From Henckelia pumila (taxonomy: Eukaryota > Streptophyta > Magnoliopsida > Lamiales > Gesneriaceae): a stretch of 64,000 bases of DNA. The stretch lies in contig NC_133123.1 in assembly GCF_033568475.1 (NCBI RefSeq), positions 159,479,753-159,543,752 of the forward strand. The letters are read 5' to 3'. A model generated the notes under the pieces. It saw nothing but the letters and a program-made list of their open reading frames with translations. It had not been told where the DNA came from and did no database searches. The position numbers and the translations under genes are program-made. Below, piece after piece: positions 31,183 through 58,895 of this stretch (position 1 is its first letter; every line of letters starts with the position of its first letter).

Positions 31183-32268
31183 GATTCACCGAGGAAATGT
31201 TGCAGAGCATTCCGAACATCAAGGAAATCGATGTTTCCTACGATGCTCTCAGCTTGCTGGGAAAAGAATGGTCCTATTACCAAATTGACAATCTTGGCAA
31301 CCTACATCATCTCAAAGCATTGAAAATACGCGGCAGTCCAAACCGACATTGGTGTTTGAACTTGATTTCACCCTCATCAAGAATTAAGTTTCAGTTTCCG
31401 CCATCGCTTAAAACTTTAACATTGGGTGGGGTTGAAATTCTTTGGAATGATTTGGCAATCATAGGTTCATTACCCAATCTTGAAGTTCTCAAACTAAAGA
31501 ATCATGCTTGCGTAGGGACAGAGTGGGAACCGAACGAAGAGGAGTTCTGTCAACTAAAAGTTTTGGTACTGGAAAGTTTGGACTTGAAGAATTGGGAAGC
31601 TGATTCTTACCACTTTCCAAGCCTCAGGCGCCTCATTATCCGACGGTGCAACAACTTGGTGGAGATACCATCTGGGATCGGAGAAAGCCCGACACTCGAC
31701 ACCATCGAGTTGTACAACTGCAATGCTTCTGTCTCGGCTTCAGCAAATGAAATACTGGAGAAGCAGTTGAGCTACGGAAATGATGGCTTTCAAGTTATCA
31801 ATGGGGATGCTAAACCGAAGGGCTCGCGGCGTACTCGGCATTCACTTCTCAGGTGTGATCTTGTTGTAGAGGAGATAACCGAGGTGTAGTGCAAAATTCT
31901 CAAATGAAATGAATAATAATGCTAGCAACTAATTTGCTTTCGTTCCTTCATTCTAAATCAACAAATTCAAGTTGCTAGACATTATTATACGGTTCCAAAA
32001 TCTTTTACAACTTCCCTCTATGATTATCTTCTATCAAATGAATGTCAAGATTATGCATGTTGAGTTGACCTTTTTTAAAGTTATAAATGCTAGAAATTGA
32101 TTGTTCAATATAATTGACATGATCCAGTAATATAATGGTGAGATGGATTCGTTGTGTCCTACGTGAAATATCATTTTCTAAATTTAACGAAGTTATTCTA
32201 TGATTTTGCCTGCTTTCAGGTTCTTAAAATCAAAAGGAAAGGCTTTGAAGGAGAAGGATGATTCCTAA
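31179..32268 (+). pseudogene. NLR3, 3' part: remaining LRRs and small second exon
   Basis: The shifted frame continues FTEEMLQSIPNIKEIDVSYD through the C-terminal LRRs (LKTLTLGGVEILW, IGSLPNLEVLKLK, NNLVEIPSGIGES) and tail (QLSYGNDGFQVING). A donor TCTCAG|GTGTGA lies at 31852/31853 and an acceptor TTTCAG at 32219. Exon 2 (32220-32268) reads FLKSKGKALKEKDDS, stop TAA. An unspliced reading would end at 31889. The intact coding character after the frameshift suggests the lesion is recent. Confidence 0.82.
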
Positions 32269-32613: not shown

Positions 32614-33476
32614 TAGAGCCGTCAATTTGGGTTAGGTTCGTCGAGTCGCCCCTTCCCGCCACAAAGTTTAAGTGGGTTGGGTTGAAATTTTTTCAAGGGT
32701 AAATTGCATATATCACCCTTGTGAAATCCCGTGTTAGCTAATAACCCCCTGTGAAAAATTTTTAAGCTAATAATCCCCTGTGATTCTAGATTTGTAGCAT
32801 ACACACCCTTCTGGCTAAAAAATGACGAAAATGCCCTTGACTTTTATGAACTATTTAATTTATCATTTATTTTATGTAGGGGTATTTTCGTCATTTTTTA
32901 GCTGAAAAGGGTGTGTATGCTATAAATCTAGAATCACAGGGGGTTATTAGCTTAAAAAATTTTCACAGGAGGTTATTAGCTAACACGGGATTTCACAAAG
33001 GTGATATATGCAATTTTCCCTTTTTTTCAACCCAACTAAAGGTGGCGCCTAGGCGGATTGGTCCGCCACGGGCCTGAGTTGGCCCGCGAGCCTGGAGAAT
33101 TATTATTTTATTTTTATTTTTATTGTGATATATGTATTTTTAAATGAAAGTTGTGAATTTTTTTTATTAATTATTTTATATAAAATTTATACGTATGTAA
33201 TCAATAATTAAAATTTTTATTAATATGTTTCTATTAATATTTATTTATGAAATGAAATTTATAATTAATTATAATGATTTTTATTTATTTATATTTGTAG
33301 TAAACCAACTCGTAGGTCGGTTCGCCTAACCCGCAACCCACTTTGGGTTGGGTTGGGTTGGGTTGAGAATTTTCAGCCCGCCGGAATGATAGTCTGGTCC
33401 GCCCTCGACCAGTCAAAAGGTAGATTTTTGGTGGATCGGCCCGTTCCGTCATAAGTTGGTCAGTCTGACAGTTCTA
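32614..33476. mobile_element. hAT-like element with 8-bp target duplication
   Basis: Ends are TAGAGCCGTCAA (left) and, inverted, TAGAACTGTCAG (right), flanked by ATTAGAAT (32606-32613) and ATTAGCAT (33477-33484), 7 of 8 bp matching. Subterminal GGGTTGGGTTG repeats occur on both sides. No transposase. The Mutator MITE 32697-33020 is nested inside. Confidence 0.72.
32697..33020. mobile_element. Mutator-type MITE nested in the hAT element
   Basis: A 324-bp fold-back element whose arms of about 145 bp begin GGGTAAATTGCATATATCAC and end with the inverse, GTGATATATGCAATTTTCCC. Flanks are TTTTTTCAA (left) and TTTTTTTCAA (right), consistent with a 9-bp duplication with a one-T slip, as expected for Mutator. 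Related arm sequence occurs at 26050-27746. Confidence 0.85.
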
Positions 33477-33682
33477 ATTAGCATCTACCCTACCGATGAT
33501 ACGTATTTGACGTTAGTTTCGGAAAGTCAGATCCTACCATTTTAAATCATTGATCTACTTATTATTCATATCTTAAATCATGGTTATAAATTAAGGGCAA
33601 CTTATAGATAACTCCCTAAATCAAACATAACTTTCAATTTACTCCATATATTTGTCTTTCCGAAAATGCCCTTGTCATTATT

Positions 33683-35116
33683 TTAATCATTATTATTTCT
33701 TGAATTATCAAATGTGGAATCGGATTCAAAATCTGATTCACTTGATTCATCAAGATAATAAATATTTTCATCGTCGGATGAAAATTCAATTGTTTCTACG
33801 GGATAGAATCCAATAGTATATATTTCTTCAAGAAGTTTAATTTTATTTTTCTTTTCGTTTTGTTTTGGACATTCATTCGCATAATGTCCTTCTTCGTTGC
33901 ACAACCAACATGTGCAATTCTTTCCTTTACCCTTTGGGCAAGGTGGTTTTTTGTTATCAAACTTTTTATAAAATGTTCTTTTATAAGGTTTTCTGAAAAA
34001 ATTCTTTTTAAATTTCTTTTTCTTATAGGGAATAAATTTCTTATTAAAAGATTTATAAGGTTTATTAAATTTATTCTGTTTCTGTCGTTTTAAATATTTG
34101 TGTGACATGTTTGTTTTGCAACCGTATTCTTTTACCGTGAATTCCATTTTGTCACAACAAAGTTTATTGTTTTGTTTGTAGGATTTAGAGATTCTTTTAT
34201 TTAGTGTTACTTCATGACATTTCTTTGTTATTATGTCTTTGATGAATTTAATAGCTCCTCCTAAAGTTTTAGCATAAGGACTAGTTAAGAATTCATCTTT
34301 ACTGTGTATAGGTATATTAGGTATCTTATTAAAGATACTTAGTTTATAATGTTCCTTTTTATCAGCATCTATTAATTGATAATAGTTTGTTTCATAATCA
34401 CAAATAAATTCTTCTAAGTAACATAAATTGCATAATTTAATATTATCTAATATAAAGATTGCTCTATTTTGTTCTATATTCTTAGCTACCAAATTAGCAT
34501 CATTATTAGAAACTCCTAAAAATTCTTGGTACAAGGCATCAACAAATAGTTTGAAATATCGATGTCCTGTCATTCCTTGTGGTAGATTAGTAATTACTAG
34601 ATTTTCAGCCCAAGTTCTTACTGCTCCTACCAGTGTCATTTTTATCATCCCATGAGTTAAAACTTGAATATTCTCACTTTTGTCTAATAATGATGTTAAT
34701 TGAATTTGTACTGATAGTTCATTTGCCCAATGATCTATCTTTGATTTTCTTTCTTTGGCTGTTGAACAACCTAAATCTAAGATATTCTGTTTTACAAATC
34801 CTGATGTTTTTGATTCTCTAAAAATATCTCTAACATCTTTATAAGATCCAGAGTATTGGTCTCTGTTATTTTTAAATTCTTCATCTCTTCCATCACTACC
34901 TTCTACATTCGTTCGTAGATTTAATCGTGGTCTAGAATCATCTTCAGATTCAGATTCTGAAATATCCATATCTCTGTATTGTTCTGAGTCCTGATGTGAA
35001 TGATATAATTCTTCTGTATTTACTCCTATTTGTTCAAAATCAGATGAGTCGGTTTCACTAAACATCTCCATACTTATGTTTGCCATAACTAAGGGGATTT
35101 CTATACCATGATTCAA
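33683..35116 (-). CDS. Caulimovirid coat protein (copy 1), intact frame
   Basis: 477 residues. An acidic Ser/Glu/Asp-rich N-terminus is followed by a central capsid domain (WANELSVQIQ, TWAENLVITN). A very basic Lys/Phe/Tyr-rich stretch and one CCHC knuckle CWLCNEEGHYANEC (about 405-418) come next, then an acidic tail. That is the architecture of caulimovirid coat proteins. The ORF may instead start at the internal Met at 35086; the 35116 start overlaps the preceding ORF (35058-35351) by 59 nt, a typical compact viral arrangement. The frame ends 88 bp from the enclosing inverted repeat. Copy 2 at 53497-53794 preserves only its N-terminus. Confidence 0.85.
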   Translation of the reverse strand: MNHGIEIPLVMANISMEMFSETDSSDFEQIGVNTEELYHSHQDSEQYRDMDISESESEDDSRPRLNLRTNVEGSDGRDEEFKNNRDQYSGSYKDVRDIFRESKTSGFVKQNILDLGCSTAKERKSKIDHWANELSVQIQLTSLLDKSENIQVLTHGMIKMTLVGAVRTWAENLVITNLPQGMTGHRYFKLFVDALYQEFLGVSNNDANLVAKNIEQNRAIFILDNIKLCNLCYLEEFICDYETNYYQLIDADKKEHYKLSIFNKIPNIPIHSKDEFLTSPYAKTLGGAIKFIKDIITKKCHEVTLNKRISKSYKQNNKLCCDKMEFTVKEYGCKTNMSHKYLKRQKQNKFNKPYKSFNKKFIPYKKKKFKKNFFRKPYKRTFYKKFDNKKPPCPKGKGKNCTCWLCNEEGHYANECPKQNEKKNKIKLLEEIYTIGFYPVETIEFSSDDENIYYLDESSESDFESDSTFDNSRNNND

Positions 35117-35351
35117 TTTTGAATGGTGGTTCTTCCTTCATTTTTCTTTTTCCTTTATCTATTGGAAGAACTTTCTTAAGATAGTTTAATATTTCATTAC
35201 TATGTCTTTCTTGTTCAATTATTAATCTAGTCGTTGCTAAATCAATATATTCTTTGAAATTCTTCTCTAATTCTTGTATTGATAGATTGATCTTTTTAAT
35301 ATTATTTTCTAAATCTCTTAGATCTTTTTCTAATTTTATTAAGGACGTCAT
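35058..35351 (-). CDS. Caulimovirid small coiled-coil ORF (virion-associated-protein-like), copy 1
   Basis: 97 residues beginning MTSLIKLEKDLRDLENNIKK, a heptad-rich coiled coil over about 5-75, then a basic GKRKMKEE patch. Its place between movement protein and coat protein, its size and N-terminal coiled coil resemble the virion-associated protein (ORF III product) of caulimoviruses. I see no clear sequence motif beyond that. Its ATG overlaps the movement-protein stop (ATGA). Intact here; its copy 2 equivalent has a one-base loss just after the start. Confidence 0.65.
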   Translation of the reverse strand: MTSLIKLEKDLRDLENNIKKINLSIQELEKNFKEYIDLATTRLIIEQERHSNEILNYLKKVLPIDKGKRKMKEEPPFKIESWYRNPLSYGKHKYGDV

Positions 35352-35640
35352 TGCGATGAGGTTGACTCATTAACAATAGCTTGTTTAATTTTAAGAATAT
35401 TTTGATTCATGGTTCCAATCTTATCAAGAATATCTTCATCATTTCTAGCAAATGATAATGATCTTCTTGGTACAGACTGTTTTGTGATTTGGAGGTCATC
35501 TGAACTCCATCTTTTATAGGGATTTATTTCTTCAATAAATGCTTTTCGAGGGTGTTCAATTCTTGTAATATTTTCAAACATTCTTTCAACAGAAATAGTT
35601 GGTTTTGTTGAAATTATTTCTGCTTGAGAATTATTACTTA
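35348..35640 (-). pseudogene. Caulimovirid movement protein, C-terminal part (copy 1)
   Basis: About 97 residues (SNNSQ..., VERMFENITRIEH, RWSSDDLQITKQSVPRRSLS) that follow directly, in copy 2, the movement-protein core. In copy 1 the gene is split at this point by the gypsy inserted at 35646-42925. It ends in the TGA overlapping the next ORF. Confidence 0.8.
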
Positions 35641-35645
35641 TTGCT
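35641..35645. repeat. Target-site duplication of gypsy 35646-42925
   Basis: TTGCT, repeated exactly at 42926-42930. Confidence 0.95.
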
Positions 35646-36967
35646 TGTAGTGACCCTTATCCGGATCACCTACTAAACAGAACTTAGGCATGCAATTAAC
35701 TTAATTGAAACAGATATCAGAATAAAACTGCGGAAACCATAAACATTATACAATCCCAAGTAAAGGAATCTATAATTATCCAATAATATACAACCAAATC
35801 GAATAGCTATAAAAACCCCAAACAATCAGTAGTAAAACATAAGCGAAGCTCCAGCTGGCCAACCACTGACTAGCCCCTCCTGGATCCACCCTCCTCGTCC
35901 AATCGCAAACCTGCCCCATGGAATAGGGTGTCCAGAAAATACAGAGTACGAGACGTGAGCATAAAATGCTAAGTGCGAGAGTATGAGTATACATGCATGC
36001 AAAGTGAACTCCCTATAGACTCGAGGTCAAGGATCAGATAACAGAGACAGACCGGGCCCTGGTATGTAGCACGCTGTGCCGTCGCTTCAGGAGGTGGCTC
36101 CCATACCGAGATAACCGTGGAAACGCCGGACCCAAATCGATGAAAGTCCATCCACTAACAGGATAGGGTACAACCCTACTAACAGACATCTCGAAGGAGA
36201 TACAGCAAGATGCAAATGAATGCAGCATAATATTATGGCATATAAATCATGCAGTCACATAATACATGCATACTCAGTCAGGATATCTCGAACAGTACTT
36301 TCGTACCTCAATACAGTGCAAGCTCTACCAACTCTAGGTCCACGCCTATAGTCTGCTCTACACTGCCAAATGATACTACTATCATCAAAGTGCTCTAAAA
36401 GCCTTAACTAAGCTATTGCATACTCCTAAATATTTATAGGGAGCAAAAGCTATACCTTCGTTCGTCGTTAGCCCTTTGATGTCGATGCCTCCAGAACTTG
36501 GGCACAACTCCGCTACGACTACCGAACGCCTCTCCGACCTCCGGACCAAGCCTAAGAAGACTAGAACAGCTCCAAAAGGACTAGAAAGGAAAGGAGAACT
36601 CGGAATTGGCAAATGAAAGTGAAGTCTTGGCCTTCTATTTATAGACAACGATCAGAACTTCCGATCCTTGATCGGAACGTCCGAACCTCGATCGGAACGT
36701 CCGATCCTGTCATCGGAGCTTCCGAAGATCCTGATCTGCCACGTGTCAAAATATCACTTGATGACTCCGGATAGGGGTGATCGGAGCTTCCGGTCCTGAT
36801 CGGAGCTTCCGATCCAACCACACGTCATGCCTGACGTAATAACATCGGTGCCTCCGATCGCTCATCGGAGCTTCCGATCCTGTTCGGAGCTTCCGATCCG
36901 TCCGATACCTAATTCAATTAATTAGCATTAATCCTTTAATTACTCAATTAGGGCACGGGCTACTACA
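35646..36967 (-). repeat. Gypsy 3' LTR (1,322 bp)
   Basis: Plus-strand ends are TGTAGTGACCC and GGCTACTACA. The PPT (AAGTGGGGGAGA on the minus strand) lies at about 36969-36982. It lacks one 21-bp palindromic unit found in the other LTR. Confidence 0.95.
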
Positions 36968-37102
36968 TTCTCCCCCACTTAAGATATTTCGTCCTCGAAA
37001 TCAGATCTTAAGTACCGAATGCAAATACAGAAATCAGAAACATTCTTTATTCAAATCAAACGTTTACAGAGTTTGCAACTGAATACAACTTAAAGAATGA
37101 AA

Positions 37103-37597
37103 TCAAAACAACTCAGGATGGTCTTTACGCATCCTGTCCTCAAGCTCCCAAGTAGCTTCCTCAGTGCCTCGGCGCTGCCACTGAACTAAAACCAAAGGAA
37201 TGACTTTGTTCCGTAAAACCTTATCCTTATAATCCAGGATACGAAGAGGTTTCTCAACATAAGTCAAATCCTTGTCTACCTGAACCTCAGACCGCTGCAG
37301 AATATGAGATTCATCCGCCACATACCGTCGCAACAGAGATACGTGGAACACGTCGTGAATGCTGGATAGATGCGGTGGCAATGCTAGTCGATAAGCCAAA
37401 TCGCCAATACTCTCCAAGATCTCAAACGGACCGATAAATCTGGGAGACAACTTGCCCTTAAGGCCAAATCTGAGAATCTTGCGGAAAGGTGACACTCTCA
37501 GAAACACTTTCTCCCCGACCTCGAACTGCAAAGGCCTACGCTTGATATTAGCATAACTGGCCTGACGATCCTGGGCAGTCTTAATCCGTTTCTTGAT
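37103..37597 (-). CDS. Gypsy integrase C-terminus and chromodomain
   Basis: The frame resumes after a TAG (37598-37600) in the same frame as gag-pol. It reads the GPY/F-type segment (KGKLSPRFIGPFEI, LAYRLALPPHLS) and ends in a chromodomain-like LVLVQWQRRGTEEATWE. It was part of the gag-pol ORF; the first Met after the stop is at 37531. The chromodomain-like end places the element among plant chromoviruses (Tekay/Del-like). Confidence 0.88.
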   Translation of the reverse strand: MKKRIKTAQDRQASYANIKRRPLQFEVGEKVFLRVSPFRKILRFGLKGKLSPRFIGPFEILESIGDLAYRLALPPHLSSIHDVFHVSLLRRYVADESHILQRSEVQVDKDLTYVEKPLRILDYKDKVLRNKVIPLVLVQWQRRGTEEATWELEDRMRKDHPELF

Positions 37598-40500
37598 CTA
37601 ATCAACAATGTCTATCGCCTGCTGGATAAACTCCGGTCCTTCAGCCTGTCTCTCCCTCACTTCTTCCCAGAAGAGTGGAGTACGACAACGTCGCCCATAC
37701 AACGCCTCAAAAGGTGTCATCCCAATACTAGTGTGATAGCTGTTGTTGTAAGCGAACTCGATCAACGGCAAATGATCCTGCCAGGCTGAACCAAAATCCA
37801 AGACGCACGCTCTAAGCATATCTTCTAACGTACGGATAGTGCGCTCTGACTGACCATCAGTCTCCGGATGATAGGCTGTACTCAAACTGAGAGTAGTACC
37901 CATCGCACGCTGAACACTCCCCCAGAATCTAGAAGTAAACCTGGGGTCCCGATCGCTGACAATGCTCACAGGCACTCCATGAAGTCGGACGATCTCCTGA
38001 ATGTACATCCGTGCCATGCGATCCACAGAGTACTCTCGGCTATAGGCAATGAAATGCGCTGACTTGGTGAGTCGGTCCACCACCACCCAGATAGCATCAC
38101 AGTTCCTCGGGGATACCGGCAAATGGGTCACAAAGTCCATAGTGATAAACTCCCATTTCCATTCAGGAATAGGCAGACTGTGAAGCAATCCTCCAGGTCG
38201 TCGGTGCTCTGCTTTGACCTGTTGACACACCAAACATCTCGAAACAAACTGATAAACACTGTGTTTCATTCCCTTCCACCAGAAACGAGTACGTAGATCC
38301 TTGTACATCTTGTTGCTCCCAGGATGAATACTCAACTTAGTGCGATGCGCCTGAGACAAAATCTCCTCTCGCAACTCTTCATCCTGCGGAATCACAAGCC
38401 TACCAGACAAACACAGAAAGCCATCTGACTGATAATGAAATCCAGACGAGCTACCCTCGTTAGCTAGACGAGCTAAACGCTGAGTCTTTGAATCAGACAT
38501 CTGAGCATCTCGGATCCGCGAATACAAGGCTGGCTCAGATAATATCGCAAACATCTGGATACTCTGCATACCTTTCTTATGCTTGAAGGTAAAACCTGAA
38601 GTACAACAGTCACTAATCGCACTAGACATCGAACAAGTCTGAAGTGCGGATAGTCGCACCTTGCGACTCAAAGCATCAGCGGTGAGATTAGCAGCTCCCG
38701 GATGGTACTTAATCTCGCAATCATAGTCCTTAAGCAAGTCCATCCAACGTCTCTGTCTCATGTTCAATTCTGCCTGAGTGAACAAATACTTGAGACTCTT
38801 ATGGTCGGTGAAGATCTCAAATTTCTCGCCATACAGATAATGACGCCAGATCTTCAAAGCGAACACAATGGCTGCCAATTCCAAATCATGGACTGAGTAG
38901 TTGTCCTCGTGAAGCTTCAGCTGTCTAGAAGCGTATGCGATCACATGCCCATTCTGAGTCAGGACACAACCTAACCCCTGAAGAGAAGCATCCGTGTAAA
39001 CTACATACCCTCCAGATCCTGACGGTAATGCTAACACCGGCGCAGAAGTCAACCGCCGTCGAAGCTCACGGAAATTCTCCTCACACTCGGAGGACCACTC
39101 AAAATCCACACCCTTGCGGGTAAGCTGCGTCAACGGTCGAGCTAACTGAGAGAAGTTCAGAATGAAGAGACGATAATACCCTGCTAGACCCAGAAAACTA
39201 CGGATCTCAGCAACTGTCGTCTGACGCGACCAATTAAGTACCGCTTCAATCTTGCTTGGATCAACAGAAATCCCCTCCCTGGATATGATATGGCCAAGAA
39301 AAACCACTCTATCCATCCAGAACTCACACTTGCTCAGCTTGGCGTACAATTGCTCATCTCGAAGAGTCTGCAGTACCAACCGCAAGTGAGAAACATGCTC
39401 TTCCGTATTACGCGAATAAACCAGGATGTCGTCAATGAAGACCACGACAAACTTGTCCAAATACTCCCTGAAGACACGGTTCATCAAATCCATGAATATA
39501 GCCGGAGCATTGGTCAAACCAAATGGCATCACTAGGAACTCGTAATGCCCATAGCGAGTACGGAATGCAGTCTTGGCTACGTCCTGATCACGGACTCTCA
39601 ACTGATGATACCCAGATCTCAAGTCAATCTTGGAGTAAACTGACGTGCCCTGCAGCTGATCAAACAAGTCATCAATACGAGGCAACGGATACTTGTTCTT
39701 CACAGTGACTCGATTCAGCTGCCGATAGTCAATGCACAGCCGCATCGACCCATCCTTCTTCTTCACGAAGAGAACAGGAGCTCCCCAAGGAGATACACTA
39801 GGACGAATGTACCCCTTGTCCAAAAGATCATGTAGCTGATTCTTCAACTCACGCATCTCTGACGGAGCCAGACGATACGGTGCTCTAGAAATAGGCGAAG
39901 TACCCGGCATCAACTCTATGCCAAACTCGACATCCCTAGCAGGAGGAAAACCCGGAATCTCATCAGGAAACACATCTGGAAATTCATCCACAACAGGAAT
40001 GCTCTCTATCCCAATACTCTCAGCGGAAAAATCAACTGCATAGATAAGGTAGCCTTCCCCGCCAGACTCTAGAGCTCGACAGGCTCTCAAAGCTGATACC
40101 AAAGGCATCGGGGGTCGCGCTCCCTCACCATAGAAAAACCAACTCTCACTCCCTTCCGGATGAAAGCGTACTAATCTCTGATAGCAGTCCACTGAAGCTC
40201 GATAGGTAGTCAGCACATCTATTCCCAGAATGCAATCAAAGTCGTCCATCGCCAGGACCATGAGATTCGCCAACAGAACGTTCCCTTCGAACTCTAAAGG
40301 GCAACCCATCACTAGACGCTTAGCCAAAGCAGATTGGCCCATCGAAGTAGAAACAGACATCACTACGTCTAGTGCAATGCATGGTAACTTATGCCTCTTA
40401 ACAAAATGTGCAGAAATGAAGGAATGAGATGCACCAGTGTCAATAAGTACAAGAGCAGGTATACCATAAAGCAAAAATGTACCTGCGATGACTTTCTCAT

Positions 40501-41524
40501 TCTCCTCCACAGCCTGATCATGTCTCAGGGCAAACACCTGGCCAGAAGCTCGTGGCCTCAAATGAGAACTCCCAGCAGACTGTCCCTGTGACCTCTGCTG
40601 TACGGTGGCCTGAGAACCCGATCCTGAACCAGATCCAGAACCGACTCCCCCAGACAGTGGACAATCCCTCCGGATATGACCAGTCTCTCCACAACGGAAA
40701 CAAGCTCCAGAAGCTCTACGGCACTTGTCGGATGGATGGTTCTTCCCACAGTGATCACACTTGTCCTTCTTACCATAACGGACAATACCTCCAGAACCAG
40801 AGGAAGAAGAAGATCCAGACTTCTTGAAAGTTTGGGCACGGGGACCCAAAGAACTAGCAGGCCTCGATTGAGGGAAAGACCTGTTCCGCCGAATGCTATC
40901 CTCCGCCTGGTGACAACGGCTCACCAAACCCTCGTAGGACATGTCGTCGCCAACCGCCACACGGTCATGGATCTCAGGGTTAAGGCCCTGAAGGAACAGA
41001 TTATACTTCATCTCTGAGCTATCAGCAATCTCGGGGCAATAGGATAGCAGATCAAAGAACCTCTGCTGATACTCATCGATAGACATGGTTCCCTGTCGCA
41101 GACTCAGTAGCTCGCCTGCCTTCGACTGTCGGAGTGCAGGAGGAAAATACCGCTTTTGGAAAGCTGTGCGGAACTCGGCCCAGGTGGACACTTCTCTCGC
41201 CGCAACAAAAGGTGCAGAAGTAAACCTCCACCACCTGCGCGCACGCCCATCCAAAAGATAGCCAAGGGTCTCCACCTTCTGCTCCTCGGTGCATTGGAAA
41301 GTCTGAAAAGTCGTCTCCATGCGGTCTAACCAGTTCTCCGCATCCTCCGGAGACTCACCTCCAACTAAGGGCTTGGGACCCATAGCTAAGAATCGACGCA
41401 CAGTGAAACGCTCGTCGTCATGATGACGATGACGCCGTTCTCGACGAGGCTCCCGGTCGGCATCACCCCAACGCCCACCAATACTGCCATGAGAACTCTG
41501 GTCGTCACGATTTGACATATACAA
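37598..41524 (-). CDS. Gypsy gag-pol polyprotein
   Basis: A 1308-residue open frame. Retrotrans_gag (about 50-220; [19 protein letters not shown]), CCHC knuckle [14 protein letters not shown] (about 278-291), protease [12 protein letters not shown] (about 360), RT with [19 protein letters not shown] and catalytic FIDDIL (about 695), RNase H ([31 protein letters not shown]), integrase HHCC zinc site (…[11 protein letters not shown]) and DDE core ([34 protein letters not shown]). All catalytic residues seem present. It ends at a single TAG (Gln to stop by comparison with the sister element at the right edge). Confidence 0.95.
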
Positions 41525-41568
41525 AAATACCTCAAGATGAGACTAAAATCCCAAGAAATCTTTTGCAT

Positions 41569-41580
41569 GCTCTGATACCA
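41569..41580 (-). other. Gypsy primer-binding site (tRNA-iMet)
   Basis: The minus strand reads TGGTATCAGAGC, 4 bp from the 5' LTR end at 41585. Confidence 0.92.
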
Positions 41581-41584
41581 TAAA

Positions 41585-42925
41585 TGTAGTGACCCTTACC
41601 CGGATCACCTACTAAACAGAACTTAGGCATGCAATTAACTTAATTGAAACAGATATCAGAATAAAACTGCGGAAACCATAAACATTATACAATCCCAAGT
41701 AAAGGAATCTGTAATTATCCAATAATATACAACCAAATCGAATAGCTGTAAAAACCCCAAACAATCAGTAGTAAAACCTAAGCGAAGCTCCAGCTGGCCA
41801 ACCACTGACTAGCCCCTCCTGGATCCACCCTCCTCGTCCAATCGCAAACCTGCCCCATGGAATAGGGTGTCCAGAAAATACAGAGTACGAGACGTGAGCA
41901 TAAAATGCTCAGTGCGAGAGTATGAGTATACATGCATGCAAAGTGAACTCCCTATAGACTCGAGGTCAAGGATCAGATAACAGAGACAGACCGAGCCCTG
42001 GTATGTAGCACGCTGTGCCGTCGCTTCAGGAGGTGGCTCCCATACCGAGATAACCGTGGAAACGCCGGACCCAAATCGATGGAAGTCCATCCACTAACAG
42101 GATAGGGTACAACCCTACTAACAGACATCGAAGGAGATACAGCAAGATGCAAATGAATGCAGCATAATATTATGGCATATAAATCATGCAGTCACATAAT
42201 ACATGCATACTCAGTCAGGATATCTCGAACAGTACTTTCGTACCTCAATACAGTGCAAGCTCTACCAACTCTAGGTCCACGCCTATAGTCTGCTCTACAC
42301 TGCCAAATGATACTACTATCATCAAAGTGCTCTAAAAGCCTTAACTAAGCTATTGCATACTCCTAAATATTTATAGGGAGCAAAAGCTATACCTTCGTCC
42401 GTCGTTAGCCCTTTGATGTCGATGCCTCCAGAACTTGGGCACAACTCCGCTACGACTACCGAACGCCTCTCCGACCTCCGGACCAAGCCTAAGAAGACTA
42501 GAACAGCTCCAAAAGTACTAGAAAGGAAAGGAGAACTCGGAATTGGCAAATGAAAGTGAAGTCTTGGCCTTCTATTTATAGACAACGATCGGAACTTCCG
42601 ATCCTTGATCGGAACGTCCGAACCTCGATCGAAACGTCCGATCCTGTAATCGGAGCTTCCGAAGATCCTGATCTGCCACGTGTCAAAATATCACTTGATG
42701 ACTCCGGATAGGGGTGATCGGAGCTTCCGGTCCTGATCGGAGCTTCCGATCCAACCACACGTCATGCCTGACGTAATAACATCGGTGCCTCCGATCGCTC
42801 ATCGGAGCTTCCGATCCTGTTCGGAGCTTCCGATCGTGCCTTCGGAGCTTCCGATCCGTCCGATACCTAATTCAATTAATTAGCATTAATCCTTTAATTA
42901 CTCAATTAGGGCACGGGCTACTACA
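41585..42925 (-). repeat. Gypsy 5' LTR (1,341 bp)
   Basis: The partner of 35646-36967. The U3 part (42590-42870) is an array of short near-palindromes of the type GATCGGAGCTTCCGATC. Confidence 0.95.
42571..42580 (-). promoter_or_regulatory. Gypsy LTR TATA box
   Basis: The minus strand reads TATAAATAGA, just downstream of the palindrome array in U3. The homologous box in the other LTR is at about 36636-36645. Confidence 0.65.
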
Positions 42926-43583
42926 TTGCTAAACCGACAACATAGTTTATATTGATCGGATGGTTTTCTGTTAACATAAGATTATTTCTATAAAAGTAAT
43001 AATCTAATGTTAAAACGTCATTTATGTTTTTATCAAAAAGAGATATATTGTATTGTGGATAAATACAAAATTTCATCTTTTTGTAACATAAATTTTCTTC
43101 AATTTTTCCAAGGATAGAATCCTCGAAATTACGTATTCGTTTGTCACGAACTGTTATTTCAATTAGTGTATCTATTCCTTCTCGGTAGTGAGCTGATATT
43201 ATTATTTCAATTCCTCCGATATGAACATATTTCAGTTCAGATCGTTCTTTTTCACTGGCTTTTGCCATGATGGTATTAATATCTTGAGTTGTTAATAACT
43301 TCAGAGTATTAGACCTTGATTCGTTATTTATTTTACAAGATCGTTCTTTTGTACAAATCGAATAATAAATTAAATTTTTTCTGGGATTAATAAAATTTGA
43401 AATCTTACTTAGTATTCCTGGTTGGTCTATTAGATTTGTTTTTGAATTAGAAAACCCTGTTTTCTGTATTTCAGCAAACTTACTTTGATTGAATATAATA
43501 TTCAAATTATACTCTTGGTTTTCTTCAGATTCTTCAGATTCATCGACCAGGTTGTTTTGATTTGGAATGGTTACTTCTGTCAT
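42926..43583 (-). pseudogene. Caulimovirid movement protein, N-terminal and core part (copy 1)
   Basis: About 219 residues starting MTEVTIPNQNNLVDESEESE. The 30K-type movement protein core follows: IGGIEIIISAHYREGIDT, DKRIRNFEDSILGKIEENLC, FCIYPQYNISLFDKNINDVL and HPININYVVGLA. Movement proteins form tubules at plasmodesmata. The gypsy insertion (TSD TTGCT at 42926-42930) separates it from its C-terminus at 35348-35640. Reading through the LTR adds one foreign residue, then stop. Confidence 0.85.
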
Positions 43584-43862
43584 TTTAACAGATGATAGAA
43601 CTTCTTAATTTTCTTAAGGCTATTAAAAGCCTTTTTGTTGAATCTATCTGTTCTTATAAATTCTGAAAATCTTCGAAACTATCAATTGAAAATTGACAAT
43701 TTTTAAGATGTTTCAAATTGTTTTCACAATTTTCTATATCAAAATTTATATTTTGAGAATATAAATTAAAGATATTCATTTTTGTATTTTCATACATTTT
43801 TCATTTAGTAAAAATTGTTACTTTTATTATTTTGCTTTTGTTGATCGGATTTCGATAACAAA
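43569..43862 (-). pseudogene. Caulimovirid small ORF B (copy 1), broken
   Basis: It is homologous to the 97-residue ORF at 52037-52330 in copy 2, between small ORF A and the movement protein. In copy 1 at least two stops are visible: TGA replacing TGG near 43801 and TAA near 43650. The product is Asn/Lys-rich with no motif that I recognise. Confidence 0.6.
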
Positions 43863-43870
43863 GTTTGTTC

Positions 43871-44092
43871 TTATTCATAGCATATTGTTTTGTCTTCAAT
43901 TTCATCGTTTTCAGAAATTTGAATTATCATTTTCCAGTTGCTTGAAAAATGTTCTTTTTTATGATTTTTGAAATAAAAGGTTTGGAGATCTTTTATTTTA
44001 TTCCATAATTTATCTATTTGACGTAAATCTTTTAGTAAGATTATTTTATCAAATAAATTTTTAATCTCAATATCTAAAGTTAATCCAGGCAT
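43871..44092 (-). CDS. Caulimovirid small ORF A (copy 1)
   Basis: 73 residues (MPGLTLDIEIKNLFDKIILL...), almost identical to 51823-52044. It is the first ORF after the primer-binding site, the place occupied by small leader-proximal ORFs in other caulimovirids. Predicted helical, no motif recognised. Function unknown. Confidence 0.6.
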   Translation of the reverse strand: MPGLTLDIEIKNLFDKIILLKDLRQIDKLWNKIKDLQTFYFKNHKKEHFSSNWKMIIQISENDEIEDKTICYE

Positions 44093-44112
44093 TAATAATC
44101 TGCTTAATTTAA

Positions 44113-44124
44113 GCTCTGATACTA
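44113..44124 (-). other. Viral minus-strand primer site (tRNA-iMet), mutated
   Basis: It reads TAGTATCAGAGC. Copy 2 has the canonical TGGTATCAGAGC at 51791-51802. It marks nucleotide 1 of the viral genome by convention. Confidence 0.85.
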
Positions 44125-44923
44125 GGTTGCGAAATTCTTCAAATTCTTATGAATTTTCTTATTCATGGATTTACAGATCTGATTTATGGATTTACATATC
44201 TGATTCATTTATAACAGATAAATGTTTTCATATTAGTTTGGTTCCATTCATGGATTATTAATACAAATTTTAGTTGATAAATTGATTCAAATATGGTTAA
44301 ATCAGAAGTATTTAAACGATATTCACGAAATGTATCATATTCATGATCATCTTCTATTTCGAACCAGTTTTTTATTATTAATCTTCCATTTCTTATAAAG
44401 GATGATGATATGATTAATGTATTTTGACTATTTCTTTGAATTGAGGGCTGCAGGAGGTTTAGGAAGGTTACCTTGTTTGAATGAATCTTGGTTTTGAGCA
44501 GAGGCCAAATCCTTGCTTTCCCTTAACGATCACTTGATCAACTGGTACTTGCTTTATGGATCTTCAGGTTTACTCTTAACCATGAATATTCAATGATTGG
44601 TTTCCAACCTTATCCTCCTTACGCCCTGCTTGTTTAGTTATTAGCCATAAGGCTTATTTTGTTTCTGATTTTATGTTTCTTAGTTTTTGATAGTTTTCAT
44701 ACGTCTTGTATGAACCAGATTGTAAGAAACTTTTAGAAGAGAGAGATACTCAAACTTCACTTCTCTTTTACAGCACAAAACATCTCCTTTTATAGGCGTG
44801 GAGAAACGCATACATAATAAAAGAAAAAAGGGGGACCACCCGACACTACATAATGGAAACACCTCATTTTACATCTGAATGGATGCCTTTAACATGTGGT
44901 GTGGTCCACGATTTCATTTGTTT
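44125..44923 (-). promoter_or_regulatory. Caulimovirid intergenic region with pregenomic promoter (copy 1)
   Basis: It follows the putative transactivator ORF. It carries a TATA box CTATAAAAGG (44786-44795, minus strand) and then a long leader with direct repeats around AATCAGATCTGTAAATCCAT (44160-44215) up to the primer site. A 68-codon leader ORF is present (about 44215-44421), but its start codon reads ATA here. Its position matches the 35S-type promoter and leader of caulimovirids. Confidence 0.7.
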
Positions 44924-46135
44924 TTACATTGTGTCACTCTCTGAATCACTGGTGCATTCGGACCATTTCTTTATTGGTTTGTCTTCTTTGACAGCTGGTT
45001 TGTCCTCTTTGACATCTGCTTTTTCTGTCTGAATGGGTTGACAATGTCCACATTTGTGAGTGGAAATCATTGTTCTTAGTCTTTTACATAACATTTGTTG
45101 GGTTTCTCGGGTCATGTCAACTCTTGCTTCATAGATTGGAGCTTCGAATTGAGCTAACATGGCTTGTTCTTTCTTTTGGATTGTTTCCTTGTGTCCAGTG
45201 GTTAATAAAATTTTACTGGTTGCAAAATTTATTTTAACCTTTGAGTTTCCATCAATCTTTCCTGTCTTTGAGATCATATCAATCAATGTCTTTATTCTTA
45301 TCTCAGGAAGTGTTGAGATATCCATTACTGGTTTCTCTTCATTTGATCCTTCGAATAAGAACTTGTCTTTTTGTTTTCGACATTGAATATATACCATTGG
45401 TTGATAGAATTTGTTATCATCCCAATCTGGAAGGGTTGAGTGAATACTCAATGTTAATACTGGATCGTCCTTAAAGACTGCTTTCTTGAACTTGATGATA
45501 CTATTTCTCAACTGATATGGAAATAGTTCTATTTTTTTATTGTTGAGACTGACTTCCAATCCACTTAATAATCCATTTGAAAAGAATCTTGCGACTTCAT
45601 GCGCTGGAGCACCTTGCAGTGTTCTTGCTCTTGATATGCTCTGTGTGTCACAAGTTTGTAGCCAAGATTCTGCAGATGGTTTGGCTATTCTCAAATAGTT
45701 TAGTGTTTCAAAGAATTCAGTCTTGAGTTTTTCTGAAAAATTTGTTTTTTCAAAAATTGGTTTTTGTGGTCGCAGATTGACCATCTTTCTTTCTTTCTTT
45801 TCAAGGGCACTTTTAAACGTCCTTTCTTCTTTTTTATTTTTCTCGGTGCTGGCTGTGTCCACCGGTTCTTTTTTCTTTTCTTTTTCTTTGTCAGTGTTGG
45901 CTGTGACCACTGACTGTTTCTCTTTTATCTCCATTATTTTGTCAAATGGAGTTGCCATTTTGATTCGTGTTCTTGGTGAGGATGATGATGATGAAGTTAT
46001 CATCTTTTCTTCTGTCCTTTGAATTTTTCTACTCAAATTTCTTTCTTTTAGTTGAAGAATTTGAATTTCTTCCTGCAATTCAATCAATTGTTCTTTTAAT
46101 TGACTTAGTTGCTCCATCTTGATTATACTCTGCAC
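44924..46135 (-). CDS. Putative caulimovirid transactivator / inclusion-body protein (copy 1)
   Basis: 403 residues, intact. A coiled-coil N-terminus (LKEQLIELQEEIQILQLKER) is followed by a Lys/Glu-rich linker and a conserved-looking core (LNYLRIAKPSAESWLQTCDT, RARTLQGAPAHEVARFFSNG). A CxxC-containing acidic tail (CGHCQPIQ) closes it. I call it the P6-like translational transactivator mainly because it sits between pol and the intergenic promoter, the genomic slot of that gene, and because of its size. Direct motif evidence is weak. Copy 2 has lost it entirely. Confidence 0.6.
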   Translation of the reverse strand: MQSIIKMEQLSQLKEQLIELQEEIQILQLKERNLSRKIQRTEEKMITSSSSSSPRTRIKMATPFDKIMEIKEKQSVVTANTDKEKEKKKEPVDTASTEKNKKEERTFKSALEKKERKMVNLRPQKPIFEKTNFSEKLKTEFFETLNYLRIAKPSAESWLQTCDTQSISRARTLQGAPAHEVARFFSNGLLSGLEVSLNNKKIELFPYQLRNSIIKFKKAVFKDDPVLTLSIHSTLPDWDDNKFYQPMVYIQCRKQKDKFLFEGSNEEKPVMDISTLPEIRIKTLIDMISKTGKIDGNSKVKINFATSKILLTTGHKETIQKKEQAMLAQFEAPIYEARVDMTRETQQMLCKRLRTMISTHKCGHCQPIQTEKADVKEDKPAVKEDKPIKKWSECTSDSESDTM

Positions 46136-46281
46136 AAGAAAACATATTTATATATATAATGGTTAGTAAAATAACTCTTTTCGTGAGTAATTCGGATAGT
46201 TTTATTATGCGTATCATTGCATTTATAAATTCTTTTGCAAGAATTGAATCAATCTTAAATTGATTATTTTACTCAAAGAGT

Positions 46282-46461
46282 AATTTATGTTTCTGAATAT
46301 AAATCTCATTTCATTAATTTATATTCCCCATGCTTTTTGAGGCATGTTCGGATGACTGAAAGTCATAAAATAATTCATGTTTCTGAATATAAATCTCATT
46401 TCATCAATTTATATTCCCCATGCTTTTTGAGGCATGTTCGGATGACTCACAGTCATTTTCT
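46282..46461. repeat. Tandem 90-bp duplication at the 3' end of viral pol
   Basis: Two units (about 46282-46371 and 46372-46461), aligned on TTCTGAATATAAATCTCATT at 46291 and 46381. The unit at higher coordinates still encodes the last residues and stop of pol; the other lies just beyond the stop. Confidence 0.85.
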
Positions 46462-48430
46462 GGATCACTTAGGATCTCCTTTGTTATTCCGTTACTACGG
46501 ATAGTATAGTTTGGATGAAGTTCTCTGGTTAATGCGTCGGGTAATGAATTATCCGTTTCTTTGACATGTTGGATCTCGAACTGATAATGGTTCAATTCCA
46601 ATTGCCATCTAATTAGCCTTGCTGCATTTCTTGATATTTTCCTTGTCTTGAAATATGTTAAATTCATATTATCTGCTCTTACTAAAAACGGTTTAGAAAT
46701 AAGATAAATTTCATAAGTTCTAATTGTGAATATTAAAGCTAATAATTCTTTTTCATTCGAATGATAATTTAATTGTGCACCTTGAAAAGTTCCTGATGTA
46801 TAGTTGCATAATTCTTCATTATTTCTAGTAGCTGTTTTAGTAAGTTCTTCTAAATTTCTTTCTCCAGTATAAGCTTTTAAACATGCTCCCCAGTATTCAT
46901 CTGAAGCGTCTGTTTCAATTATTATTATAACTTTATTTGAAGGAAAATATAATTAAGGAAGATTACTAATTATTTTCTTTATAATTGTGTCTATGTAATT
47001 AGTATCTTCTTTCGACCATTTTCACTTATAGTCCTGTTTAAGTTTTACCTGAAGAGGTTTTCTGATTTCTGCAAGTTTCTTAATGTAATTTCCAGAATAA
47101 GTTAATAATCTTAAAAATCTTCTTAATTGATCTTTATCCTTGATTTCACTAGGAAAATCATGAATTTTCTTAAGTATATGCGGTTGTAAACAATGTTTTC
47201 CATCTTCTATTTGTAATCCTAAATAATTTATTTTTGTTTTGTATAATTGTGCTTTCTTTTCAGAAAGTATAATTCCATCTTTATGACAAATATCTAAAAC
47301 TGTCATGAGATCTTTATAATGTTGATCTAGTGTTTTTGAATAAATTAATATGTCATCTATATAAACACAACAAAAATCTATATATGATTTAAAAGATTCA
47401 TCCATATATCTTTGAAAGATACCTGGTGCTTGTTTAAGTCCGAAAGGTAATACAGTCCATTGATACTGTCCTTTTGGACAACTGAATGCTGTAAGTAATT
47501 GTGTTTGTGGTTCTAGTTGAATTTGCCAGAATCCTGATTTACAATCTAAACTGGAAAAATATTTCATTTCTCCTATATAAGATAGTAAATCATTCTTATT
47601 TGGGATATAATATTCATCCATAATTGTTGCTTTATTCATCTTTCGATAATCAATTACCATTCTTTTCTTATCAGTATCTTTCTTACTGACATAAAAGGCT
47701 GGTGAAGAGTGTGGACTTTTACTAGGGATGATTATCTTAAGTTTTAATAATTCTTGAACTTCTTTTTCAAATATTTTTACATCATCCATGTTACATCTTC
47801 TTGGTGCTTCACGGATTGTGATATTAGGGTCTTTGAGTTTTATTGAAGCAATGAATTGTTTTCTTTTCTTAATTTTGTCCTGAGGATTTTCAGAACATAT
47901 ATCATGAAATTTTCTCATGATTTCTTTTTCAGGATTAATCGTTAAAATATTTTCTATTTTTAGTTCTATTGGATTTGTATTTCGTTTATGAAAATTCTTT
48001 GTAAATCCTTCATTTCCTACGCGAAATGCTGTTCGTATTTTGGGAATGTAAATCATTGATGATCCTTTGTTTAAAGTTATGTGATCTTCAAATTGTGTAA
48101 AGGGAAGATATTCTCTTAAAAAGTTATTTCCTATTATAATGTCCATTCCTGATTCTATTTGATATATAATGGGTATTACAAATTTTGTTTCTTCTATTTC
48201 TATTTTTAATTTTTCCGCTACTGTATTAAGCATGATTATTGATCCATCTCCTATTCGAACTTTTAATCCTTTATCATATTTTTTCCAATAATGATTTGGA
48301 AGTATATGCTTGCTGCCTAAACACATACTTGCTCCTGTATCAACATAAGCATTTATATGATATGGTTTATGTTCTTTGATTTTAATTTGAATTTTTATAT
48401 ATATACTATTTGGATTAGTTTTGTTTTTAT
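46404..48430 (-). pseudogene. Caulimovirid pol: protease, RT, RNase H (copy 1)
   Basis: One frame from about 48430 to 46404, interrupted by two stops. It has aspartic protease VDTGASMCLGSKH (about 48315-48345), RT (MVIDYRKMNKATIMDEYYIP, FSSLDCKSGFWQIQLEP, LPFGLKQAPGIFQRYMDE, catalytic YIDDILIYSK) and RNase H (IIETDASDEYWGACL, NEKELLALIFTIRTYEIYLI, RWQLELNHYQFEIQ). A TGA at 47022-47024 replaces a Trp codon and a TAA lies near 46955 in place of Glu, both seen by comparison with copy 2. No ATG was found for the start; viral pol may have begun nearer the lost upstream junction with the coat protein gene. Confidence 0.88.
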
Positions 48431-48602
48431 TATCCGTTCTCTCATTTTTTATTTTTTTTTAAAGAGATAAGGGTAAAATTGATATTTAGAAACAAAAGTT
48501 TCTCTCTCCAGGGAGTTGAAAGTAAGTTTTATTTATGTAGGGATTTTTAAAATTAGTTATAAAGTGTTTTAGGGAGTGATTGGCAATTAACCCATAAATT
48601 GA

Positions 48603-49337: not shown

Positions 49338-49499
49338 TTAAAATAAGGGTTAATTGTCAATCACTCCCTAAAACACTTTATAACTTATTTATAAATCCCT
49401 ACATAAATAAAACTTACTTTCAACTCCCTGGAGAGAGAAACTTTTGTTTCTAAATACCAATTTTACTCTTATCTCTTTAAAAAAAAAATGAGAGAATGG

Positions 49500-51144
49500 A
49501 TAATAAAAACAAAACTAATCCAAATAGTATATATATAAAAATTCAAATTAAAATCAAAGAACATAAACCATATCATATACATGCTTATGTTGATACAGGA
49601 GCAAGTATGTACTTCCAAATCATTATTGGAAGAAATATGATAAAGGATTAAAAGTTCGAATAGGAGATGGATCAATAATCATTCTTAATACAGTAGCGGA
49701 AAAATTAAAAATAGAAATAGAATAAACAAAATTTGTAATACCCATTATATATCAAATAGAATCAGGAATGGACATTATAATAGGAAATAACTTTTTAAGA
49801 AAATATCTTCCCTTTACACAATTTGAAGATCACATAACTTTAAACAAAGGATCATCAATGATTTACATTCCCAAAATACGAACAGCATTTCGCGTAGGAA
49901 ATGAAGGATTTACAAAGAATTTTCATAAACGAAATACAAATCCAATAGAACTAAAAATAGAAAATATTTTAACGATTAATCCCGAAAAAGAAATCATGAG
50001 GAAATTTCATGATATATGTTCTGAAAATCCTCAGAAAAAAATTAAGAAAAGAAAACAATTCATTGCTTCAATAAAACTCAAAGACCCTAATATCACAATC
50101 CGTGAAGCACCAAGAAGATGTAACATGGATGATGTAAAAATATTTGAAAAAGAAGTTCAAGAATTATTAAAACTTAAGATAATCATCCCTAGTAAAAGTC
50201 CACACTCTTCACCAGCCTTTTATGTCAGTAAGAAAGATACTGATAAGAAAAGAATGGTAATTGATTATCGAAAGATGAATAAATCAACAATTATGGATGG
50301 ATATTATATCCCAAATAAGAATGATTTACTATCTTATATAGGAAAAATGAAATATTTTTCCAGTTTAGATTGTAAATCAGGATTCTGGCAAATTCAACTA
50401 GAACCACAAACACAATTACTTACAACATTCAGTTGTCCAAAAGGACAGTATCAATGGACTGTATTACCTTTCGGACTTAAACAAGCACCAGATATCTTTC
50501 AAAGATATATGGATGAATCTTTTAAATCATATATAGATTTTAGTTGTGTTTATATAGATGCCATATTAATTTATTCAAAAACACTAGATCAACATTATAA
50601 AGATCTCATGACAGTTTTAGATATTTATCATAAATATGGAATTATACTTTCTGAAAAGAAAGAACAATTATTCAAAACAAAAATAAATTATTTAGGATTA
50701 CAAATAGAAGATGAAAAACATTGTTTACAACCGCATATACTTAAGAAAATTCATGATTTTCCTAGTGAAATCAAGGATAAAGATCAATTAAGAAGATTTT
50801 TAGGATTATTAACTTATTCTGGAAATTACATTAAGAAACTTGCAGAAATCAGAAAACCTTTTCAGGTAAAACTTAAACAGGACTATAAGTGGAAATGGTC
50901 GAAAGAAGATACTAATTACATAGACACAATTAAAAAGAAAATAATTAGTAATCTTCCTGAATTATATTTTTCTTCAAATAAAGATATAATAATAATTGAA
51001 ACAGACGCTTCAGATGAATACTGGGGAGCATGTTTAAAAACTTATACTGGAGAAAGAAATTTAGAAGAACTTACTAAAACAGCTACTAAAAATAATGAAG
51101 AATTATTCCGCAACCTGATACATCGTGGAGAAACGCATACATAA
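49500..51144 (+). pseudogene. Caulimovirid pol (copy 2), broken
   Basis: The protease (VDTGASM) is followed by a 19-bp loss near 49608 and a TAA near 49725. The open part 49768-51144 covers most of protease C-terminus, RT and the start of RNase H. The catalytic RT box reads YIDAIL instead of YIDDIL. After NNEEL the sequence departs from pol and joins leader DNA (GTGGAGAAACGCATAC), ending in a foreign tail and stop. Confidence 0.88.
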
Positions 51145-51790
51145 TAAAAAAAAAGTGAAGTTTGAGTATCTCTCTCTTCTAAAAGTTTCTTACAATCTGG
51201 TTCATACAAGACGTATGAAAACTATCAGAAACTAAGAAACATAAAATCAGAAACAAAATAAGTCTTATGGCTAATAACTAAACAAGCAGGGCGTAAGGAG
51301 GATAAATTTGAAAACCAATCATTGAATATTCATGGTTAAGAGTAAACCTGGAGATCCATAGAGCAAGTACCAGTTGATCAAGTGATCGTTAAGGAAAAGC
51401 AAGGATTTGTCCTCTGCTCAAAACCAAGATTCATTCAAACAAGGTAACCTTCCTAAACCTCCTGCAGCCCTTAATTCAAAGAAATAGTCAAAATACATTA
51501 ATCATGTCATCATCCTTTATAAGAAATGGAAGATTAATAATAAAAAACTGGTTCGAAATAGAAGATGATCATGAATATGATACATTTCGTGAATATCGTT
51601 TAAATACTTCTGATTTAACCATATTTGAATCAATTTATCAACTAAAATTTGTATTAATAATCCATGAATGGAACCAAACTAATATGAAAACATTTATCTG
51701 TTATAAATGAATCAGATCTGTAAATCCATAAATCAGATCTGTAAATCCATGAATAAGAAAATTCATAAGAATTTGAAGAATTCCGCAACC
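51145..51790 (+). promoter_or_regulatory. Viral leader (copy 2), TATA region deleted
   Basis: It is collinear with copy 1 leader 44125-44760, including the AATCAGATCTGTAAATCCAT direct repeats (51710-51760). The segment with the TATA box is missing. Confidence 0.7.
51504..51710 (+). CDS. 68-codon leader ORF of the caulimovirid (copy 2)
   Basis: Starts MSSSFIRNGRLIIKNWFEIE and ends TAA/TGA just before the repeats. The same codons survive in copy 1 (44215-44421) except that ATG has become ATA. No motif recognised. It lies upstream of the primer site, in the position of short leader ORFs, and could equally be a leader uORF without a stable product. Confidence 0.4.
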   Translation: MSSSFIRNGRLIIKNWFEIEDDHEYDTFREYRLNTSDLTIFESIYQLKFVLIIHEWNQTNMKTFICYK

Positions 51791-51802
51791 TGGTATCAGA
51801 GC
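51791..51802 (+). other. Viral primer site (tRNA-iMet), canonical
   Basis: TGGTATCAGAGC in the leader, 20 bp before ORF A. Confidence 0.9.
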
Positions 51803-51822
51803 TTAAATTAAGCAGATTATTA

Positions 51823-52330: not shown

Positions 52331-52331
52331 A

Positions 52332-58883: not shown

Positions 58884-58895
58884 TGGTATCAGAGC
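58884..58895 (+). other. Gypsy primer-binding site (tRNA-iMet)
   Basis: TGGTATCAGAGC, 5 bp after the LTR end. Confidence 0.92.

Follow-up and report, generated by a model that had tools for sequence, protein, structure and literature searches.

A transposon family with a pararetrovirus as its body in the genome of Henckelia pumila

Organization of the element in the analysed window

The analysed window is a stretch of 64,000 nt from Henckelia pumila (Gesneriaceae, Lamiales; assembly GCF_033568475.1, NC_133123.1:159,479,753-159,543,752, forward strand), and all positions given below refer to it. At 33595-48593 the window contains an element, here called copy A, that consists of a caulimovirid gene set enclosed by two transposon-like arms and opened between the coat protein (CP) and reverse transcriptase (RT) genes. 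The element is a transposon family with a pararetrovirus as its body: other copies in the genome start at the same terminus and carry 9-bp duplications of their own, which indicates that the whole viral genome has been moved as a transposon. A first-pass annotation of this DNA had already recognized a pararetrovirus between the arms, and the whole gene set was indeed found there, but it had left unmentioned both a nested Gypsy element (35646-42925) and a second copy that begins at 49347.

Copy A spans 14,999 bp, or 7714 bp (7.7 kb) without the nested Gypsy element. All of its genes lie on the minus strand, in the order protease-RT-RNase H gene, 403-aa open reading frame (ORF), leader with a primer-like site, 73-aa ORF, movement protein (MP) gene, 97-aa ORF and CP gene. 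The protease-RT-RNase H gene (46509-48437) is full length but for two in-frame stops and was identified by the Pfam domains Peptidase_A3 and RVT_1 and by a tblastn match with the JGI protein P0018 over residues 9-671. It is separated from the 403-aa ORF by a region that contains a 94-bp tandem duplication (46273-46456, 93% alike). The 403-aa ORF (44924-46135) takes, by position, the place of ORF VI (transactivator), and a Pfam scan gave no match for it. A site at 44113-44124 deviates by one mismatch from the motif that we take to be the tRNA-Met primer-binding site, and it is directly followed by the 73-aa ORF (43871-44092), which by position corresponds to ORF VII. The 5' part of the MP gene (42931-43583) is supported by the Pfam MP domain (E 3.2e-33), and its truncated 3' part (approximately 35352-35640) was located by a DNA match to positions 52969-53793 of the second copy. 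The 97-aa ORF (35058-35351), taken from the ORF listing, occupies the ORF II/III position between the MP and CP genes, and any function is assigned to it by position only. The CP gene (33683-35116) is complete to its stop and encodes a zinc knuckle; it matched the Pfam entry Caulimovir_coat_dom with an E value of 2.7e-5 and 24.9 bits, below the cut-off of 27, and zf-CCHC above its own cut-off, and it has 16 homologues, including that of Physostegia virginiana caulimovirus 2.

The MP gene is interrupted by a Ty3/Gypsy long terminal repeat (LTR) retrotransposon in minus orientation (35646-42925), recognized by its LTR pair and by Pfam domains and encoding a gag-pol with a chromodomain. This insertion is foreign to the element; its LTRs show 12 differences in 1320 sites, and the target site duplication (TSD) TTGCT is present at 35641-35645 and 42926-42930. 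The only integrase among the scanned ORFs of the copy A span belongs to this retrotransposon. Copy A thus combines an MP, a CP with a zinc knuckle, an A3 protease-RT-RNase H and a tRNA-Met primer-like site with the lack of an integrase of its own, and these features assign it to the Caulimoviridae.

With respect to the RT sequence, named caulimovirids share about 40-47% identity with the element and P0018, which is derived from a JGI contig of 8029 bp, shares 53% (best 120 of 414 matches). When a midpoint-rooted tree was built from the element and 27 of these 120 matches, the element came out as sister to P0018 with 100/100 support, and both fell outside the named Caulimovirus and Soymovirus sequences. 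The element resembles members of the genus Caulimovirus, such as cauliflower mosaic virus (CaMV), in the order leader-MP-CP-RT-ORF VI-like gene, in size and in the degree of RT identity. It differs from them in that only the 97-aa ORF lies between the MP and CP genes and in the position of its RT in the tree, which is not among the named members of the genus.

Terminal arms and their similarity to local MITEs

Both arms are intergenic, being situated between the stop of the CP gene (33683) and the start of the RT gene (48437). The CP-side arm (arm 1, 33595-33682, plus strand) reads GGGCAACTT...CGAAAATGCCCTTG... inwards from 33595, whereas the RT-side arm (arm 2, 48438-48593, minus strand) reads, in inverted orientation, GGGTTAATTG...CCCTTATC... 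from 48593. Each opens with GGG, 18 of the first 26 bases are equal, and the blocks ACTCCCTAAA, ATAACT, TTTCAA and CCCTTRTC are seen by eye in both arms in the same order. The element is bordered by ATAAATTAA on the left (33586-33594) and ATAAATTGA on the right (48594-48602), which agree at 8 of 9 positions; the chance of such an agreement between random local 9-mers is 0.00068. When all 53,808 pairs of GGG and CCC that lie 80-20,000 bp apart in the window were evaluated, the copy A pair alone reached at least 17 of 26 equal terminal bases together with at least 8 of 9 equal flanking bases. The ordered blocks and matching flanks on which the first-pass annotation had relied are confirmed.

The arms also share sequence with miniature inverted-repeat transposable elements (MITEs) of the same window. 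Allowing for one mismatch, 9 occurrences of the motif GGGTWAATTGC were counted where 2.07 are expected, and none of 100 shuffled sequences reached this number. Exact matches are found at 48593 (arm 2), at 32697 (the end of a MITE) and at 27746, where a MITE-like array seems to end. The MITE at 32697-33020, which the earlier annotation had described as being of the same type, was verified: its ends are alike at 24 of 26 positions, and its flanks agree at 7 of 9 positions in register and better after a shift by one base. Arm 1 and this MITE have a 14-mer in common, a length that was reached by none of 500 shuffled sequences and none of 118 pieces of the viral body. The array at 26427-27746 is composed of three tandem repeats of a 432-bp MITE-like unit (99% matches) and is followed by GCAATTAACCC, which equals the terminus of arm 2.

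No sign of a viral origin of the arms was obtained at the level of protein comparison, in which the similarity to relatives breaks off within the CP and RT genes. For this reason, and in view of the sequence in common with local MITEs, an interpretation of the arms as ordinary viral spacer is not favoured. Likewise, by visual inspection, we do not favour the idea that each arm is a complete MITE inserted into the virus, or that two MITEs formed a macrotransposon, an origin of the Teratorn type, because the viral bases at the inner ends form no 9-bp repeat and the arms differ from each other.

Copies with common termini and individual 9-bp duplications

The 885-Mb assembly of H. pumila was searched for further copies with both ends of the element, as the first-pass annotation had proposed. 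The RT-side end with arm 2 yielded 567 candidate places, the best 40 of which were scored and all matched at 92-100%, and the CP-side end with arm 1 yielded 529, the best 40 of which all matched at 97-100%; the unscored places are first-look matches and not verified copies. The exact 26-base terminus of arm 2 occurs 160 times in the genome, whereas the reversed control sequence is absent. It thus looks as though well over a hundred chromosomal places hold the virus-bodied unit.

From the best-scoring RT-side matches, 30 loci including copy A were fetched. All of them start at the common terminus, with the initial GGG intact in 29 and altered in locus L014. The sequences outside differ, as only 2 of 435 pairs of 200-bp flanks exceeded a score of 60 in local alignments (best 72), and the junctions between arms and virus are the same across the scored copies. 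The first-pass annotation had named viral copies ending elsewhere without arms as an observation that would speak against its proposal of a transposon carrying a caulimovirid genome as cargo; the 30 loci all start at the arm-2 terminus, and the proposal is supported by this common terminus and the individual duplications.

Apart from copy A, all 29 loci were searched for a second end (20 loci, then nine more, plus five extended searches), which was detected in 24, so that both ends are available for 25 of the 30 copies. Over the outer 40 bases, arm 1 matches that of copy A at 28-40 positions in the 24 other copies. The 9-bp flanks of the 25 copies are identical (9/9) in 20 cases and agree at 8 of 9 positions in three, including copy A, so that duplications of at least 8/9 surround 23 of the 25 copies; another copy showed 7/9 owing to a slip in a T run. 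When flanks were crossed between copies, only 4 of 600 pairs reached 9/9 and 16 reached 8/9. The duplications are composed of 94% A+T. TSDs of 9-11 bp are described for Mutator-like elements (MULEs) (PMC3310237, consulted in part), and with up to two mismatches allowed, 24 of the 25 two-ended copies (at least 7/9) carry duplications of this kind, the other five of the 30 loci being unscorable.

Most of the 25 copies measure 7.6-7.8 kb from end to end. Shorter copies of 6445, 7089 and 7266 bp were found along with longer ones of 8054, 11,690, 15,677, 18,118 (copy B, see below) and 14,999 bp (copy A), the causes of the deviating lengths having been examined in copies A and B alone. Additionally, coordinates were paired on contigs C1-C3 by means of 27 of the 40 arm-1 places, the listed 100 of the 160 exact termini and 7 RT-side places. 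This joined 11 of the 27 arm-1 places, six of them at distances of 7.71-7.77 kb and none below 6.4 kb; misses are expected with such partial lists, which do not allow conclusions on empty units. Over about 1.5 kb outside each of the 30 RT ends, arm-1 and CP sequences were absent, and thus no tandem arrangement was seen there.

The ends of arm 2 vary among loci L002-L030, with CTAAAACAC and CTAAACCAC as well as TTGCC and TTGTC recurring, hinting at subfamilies despite the star-shaped tree described below.

Copy B and its relation to copy A

The second copy in the window, copy B, is arranged head to head with copy A. It starts with the same terminus at 49347, next to unrelated flanking sequence, and by DNA match to copy A and tblastn its part at 49347-53794 (plus strand) comprises arm 2, the RT gene, the leader, the MP gene and the start of the CP gene. 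Its 9-bp flank TTAAAATAA (49338-49346) recurs 9/9 next to arm 1 at the far end beyond the window, which gives an end-to-end length of 18,118 bp (L012/L050). The RNase H and ORF VI region has been deleted near 51124, whereas the primer-like site (presumably the same tRNA-Met motif, 51791-51802) is intact and the MP ORF (52631-53266) retains its MP domain. At 53795 copy B is split by a further LTR retrotransposon. By eye, this LTR-type element (53795-64000) starts with TGTAACGCCC and continues beyond the end of the window, and it seems to contain an inserted TGTAACACCC...GTTTCA stretch near 54324-57200.

An alignment of copies A and B over 4427 sites shows 101 differences. Within 836 codons of the RT, MP and CP genes 46 nonsynonymous and 7 synonymous differences were counted, as expected without constraint (p 0.30). 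The transitions between both copies (42925-48596 and 33595-35645 versus 49344-53793) show a strand bias on the viral coding strand, with 45 G/A against 22 C/T changes at similar G and C contents (p 0.0055), and mostly lie in CHH context. Decay by methylation was considered and rejected, since no CG excess was apparent either between A and B (CG 5/190, CHG 7/358, CHH 55/1854) or among the singletons of the 30 copies (CG 5/628, CHG 9/1349, CHH 79/8762).

Divergence of the copies

The history of the family was deduced from a 1326-nt piece of the RT gene in the 30 copies. They differ by 1.1-3.9% (median 2.4%) and form a star-like tree, in which terminal branches amount to 0.505 and internal ones to 0.031. 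Assuming 1.3e-8 substitutions per site and year, this divergence corresponds to about one million years. Singletons yielded a pN/pS of 1.08 (166 nonsynonymous, 22 stops, 41 synonymous) and variants present in at least three copies 0.97 (35 nonsynonymous, 2 stops, 9 synonymous). In-frame stops are present in 20 and indels in 18 of the 30 copies. Judged from these sequences, the changes look mostly neutral and suggest decay without constraint. As the tree is a star and no lesion is common to the copies, we infer that the RT gene of the source was open over this length.

Stops shared by several copies were considered as proof that broken copies had been copied, and this was rejected, since a common stop does not, by and large, go along with a closer relationship between the copies that carry it.

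Interpretation and alternative explanations

Three features suggest a Mutator-like element that is mobilized in trans, namely the size of the TSDs, the AT-rich targets and the similarity of the arms to the termini of local MITEs. We consider it probable, if by no means certain, that a caulimovirid became the body of a non-autonomous transposon that was moved by a Mutator-like enzyme in trans and spread in one burst, mostly between chromosomal sites, followed by neutral decay. Under this explanation, a complete caulimovirid genome, opened between the CP and protease-RT genes, would now serve as the body of a DNA transposon that is not autonomous: its two arms would be recognized by a Mutator-like transposase from another locus, which would insert the 7.7-kb unit. 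The spread of this unit would have been a single short burst that started from a source of nearly uniform sequence. Point changes, deletions and nested LTR elements would then have accumulated in the copies in place, with no clear coding constraint. Most of the spread would have been transposition from chromosome to chromosome, comparable to that of a Pack-MULE with viral cargo.

Several observations weigh against this explanation. The scored and fetched copies are the most similar ones, and the sample hence favours intact ends. The flanks of L014 agree at only 4 of 9 positions, and a second end was not found for five of the 30 loci, in searches extending to 19.5 kb for L003, L010 and L021 and to 9.5 kb for L026 and L030. 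An empty version without the viral body was not seen, although no systematic search was made. No MULE transposase is encoded by the six ORFs of at least 120 aa in the copy A span, two of which belong to the Gypsy element, and none was linked to the ends. The longest match of arm 2 to the MITE at 32697-33020 is 11 bases, which is unremarkable (31 of 500 shuffles). The terminal inverted repeats (TIRs) of MULEs typically measure 100-500 bp (PMC3310237, in the part consulted), and no such long similar repeats are present in the element. Beyond the 18 of 26 equal bases at the tip the similarity is weak: the score of a free local alignment between the arms was reached by 151 of 2000 shuffles, and that of the outer 60 bp by 68 of 2000. 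Because the arms match at the tip only, the element is termed MULE-like here and not filed as a TIR-MULE, although MULEs with dissimilar ends exist. Finally, variants found in exactly two copies gave a pN/pS of 0.52 (29 nonsynonymous, 2 stops, 14 synonymous), and the stops common to several copies do not mark clades and look recurrent, so that there is no sign that broken copies were themselves copied.

The star-like tree fits chromosomal transposition from one or a few sources as well as repeated insertion from an arm-carrying episomal virus. In the latter case, which we hold to be possible though rather unlikely, the arms would be part of a circular replicating virus: viral replication would have supplied the copies, and a MULE transposase would have supplied the integration by repeatedly inserting unit-length genomes from the episomal pool. 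Such an integrating pararetrovirus, for which a similarly low expectation holds, would carry MULE ends in an intergenic gap and exist both as an episomal circle produced by reverse transcription and as a chromosomal unit that is inserted, and perhaps excised, by a transposase of the host. Three observations fit this idea: the arms lie between the CP and RT genes and interrupt no viral gene, no tandem arrangement was seen outside the RT ends, and inner branches are nearly absent from the tree. Descent of every copy from a single source pool would lead to such a star, although stars also arise from rapid chromosomal bursts. In an episomal circle the two arms would meet, and the resulting CP-RT spacer of some 240 nt might be tolerable, since caulimoviruses read successive genes of one RNA by reinitiation (PMC5902531) and their CP and RT genes may overlap by 38 nt, as in CaMV (PMC5902531), or be 91 nt apart, as in SVBV (PMC5052798), according to the consulted portions of these articles. 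Against the episomal route, variants shared among copies show no clear purifying selection (0.97 in at least three copies and 0.52 in exactly two), no circular form or arm-bearing exogenous relative was seen, and the viral contigs scanned gave no caulimovirid. Circular Mu forms are known from maize. The chromosomal route is preferred over the episomal one, as it needs no extra step.

It appears improbable that the MITE-like look is due to convergence and that the ends are those of a different cut-and-paste superfamily that also makes 9-bp duplications, or derive from an unknown integrase. The lack of both long matching TIRs, usual in MULEs, and a transposase linked to the ends would be in line with this assumption, but the AT-rich 9-bp duplications and the termini in common with local MITEs speak against it. 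Integration of an ordinary endogenous caulimovirid through end joining, segmental duplication or the help of LTR elements, with coincidental ends, is hardly credible: the fixed ends in all 30 loci with different flanks and the flank agreement of at least 8/9 in 23 of 25 copies contradict it for the examined copies, so that it could hold only for others. Nevertheless, break repair by end joining and assistance by LTR retrotransposons are standing hypotheses for the integration of caulimovirids, and a hijacked integrase of transposon origin is mentioned as well (PMC10377300, consulted in part).

Comparison with known systems

The element shares with Pack-MULEs and other non-autonomous Mutator-like elements the 9-bp duplications, the defined ends, the foreign cargo and the many copies with distinct TSDs, and no transposase is encoded among the larger ORFs of copy A. 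As in Pack-MULEs, non-transposon cargo is moved as a unit, here between ends that are presumably of MULE nature. In contrast to Pack-MULEs, the cargo in H. pumila is a whole viral genome instead of host gene fragments, and the ends are dissimilar beyond the tip.

Teratorn, a fusion of piggyBac and a herpesvirus in fish, is likewise an entire viral genome in the form of a DNA transposon (PMC5601938, PMC10175614, both consulted in part), and the ends and TSDs described here point to the same kind of mobilization. The H. pumila element differs from Teratorn in that it is a reverse-transcribing plant virus, in the type of transposon, in size (7.7 versus 180 kb) and in that no internal transposase was found. 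Florendoviruses and the proviruses of banana streak and petunia vein clearing viruses resemble the element in being present as many chromosomal copies of caulimovirid DNA. Such endogenous caulimovirids are often flanked by TA repeats and frequently form tandem or rearranged arrays, as far as the consulted part of a review goes (PMC10377300), whereas single units with fixed ends and 9-bp duplications are found in H. pumila. A literature search, whose coverage excluded most subscription journals, found no paper on a caulimovirid between DNA transposon ends.

In the vicinity of copies A and B, R1A-like NLR resistance genes or pieces thereof cluster at 12912-15419, 22381-25062 and 29170-31889, and a Copia retrotransposon in two ORFs is located at 15662-20242. 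Over 91% of its length, the NLR at 22381-25062 shows 100% identity to a protein of H. pumila. The position of the pair of viral transposons beside the NLR cluster resembles that of a head-to-head pair of VANDAL21 elements described for an NLR pseudogene region of Arabidopsis (PMC12312487, in the part consulted).

A concrete and testable route emerges from these data by which a virus without an integrase could spread within a genome, namely via the ends of a DNA transposon. Teratorn was the first example of a fusion of a cut-and-paste transposon with a DNA virus, according to the consulted part of a 2023 review (PMC10175614), and the H. pumila element would be its counterpart in plants. If the interpretation as an integrating pararetrovirus were true, a virus family without an integrase would have gained a proviral stage.

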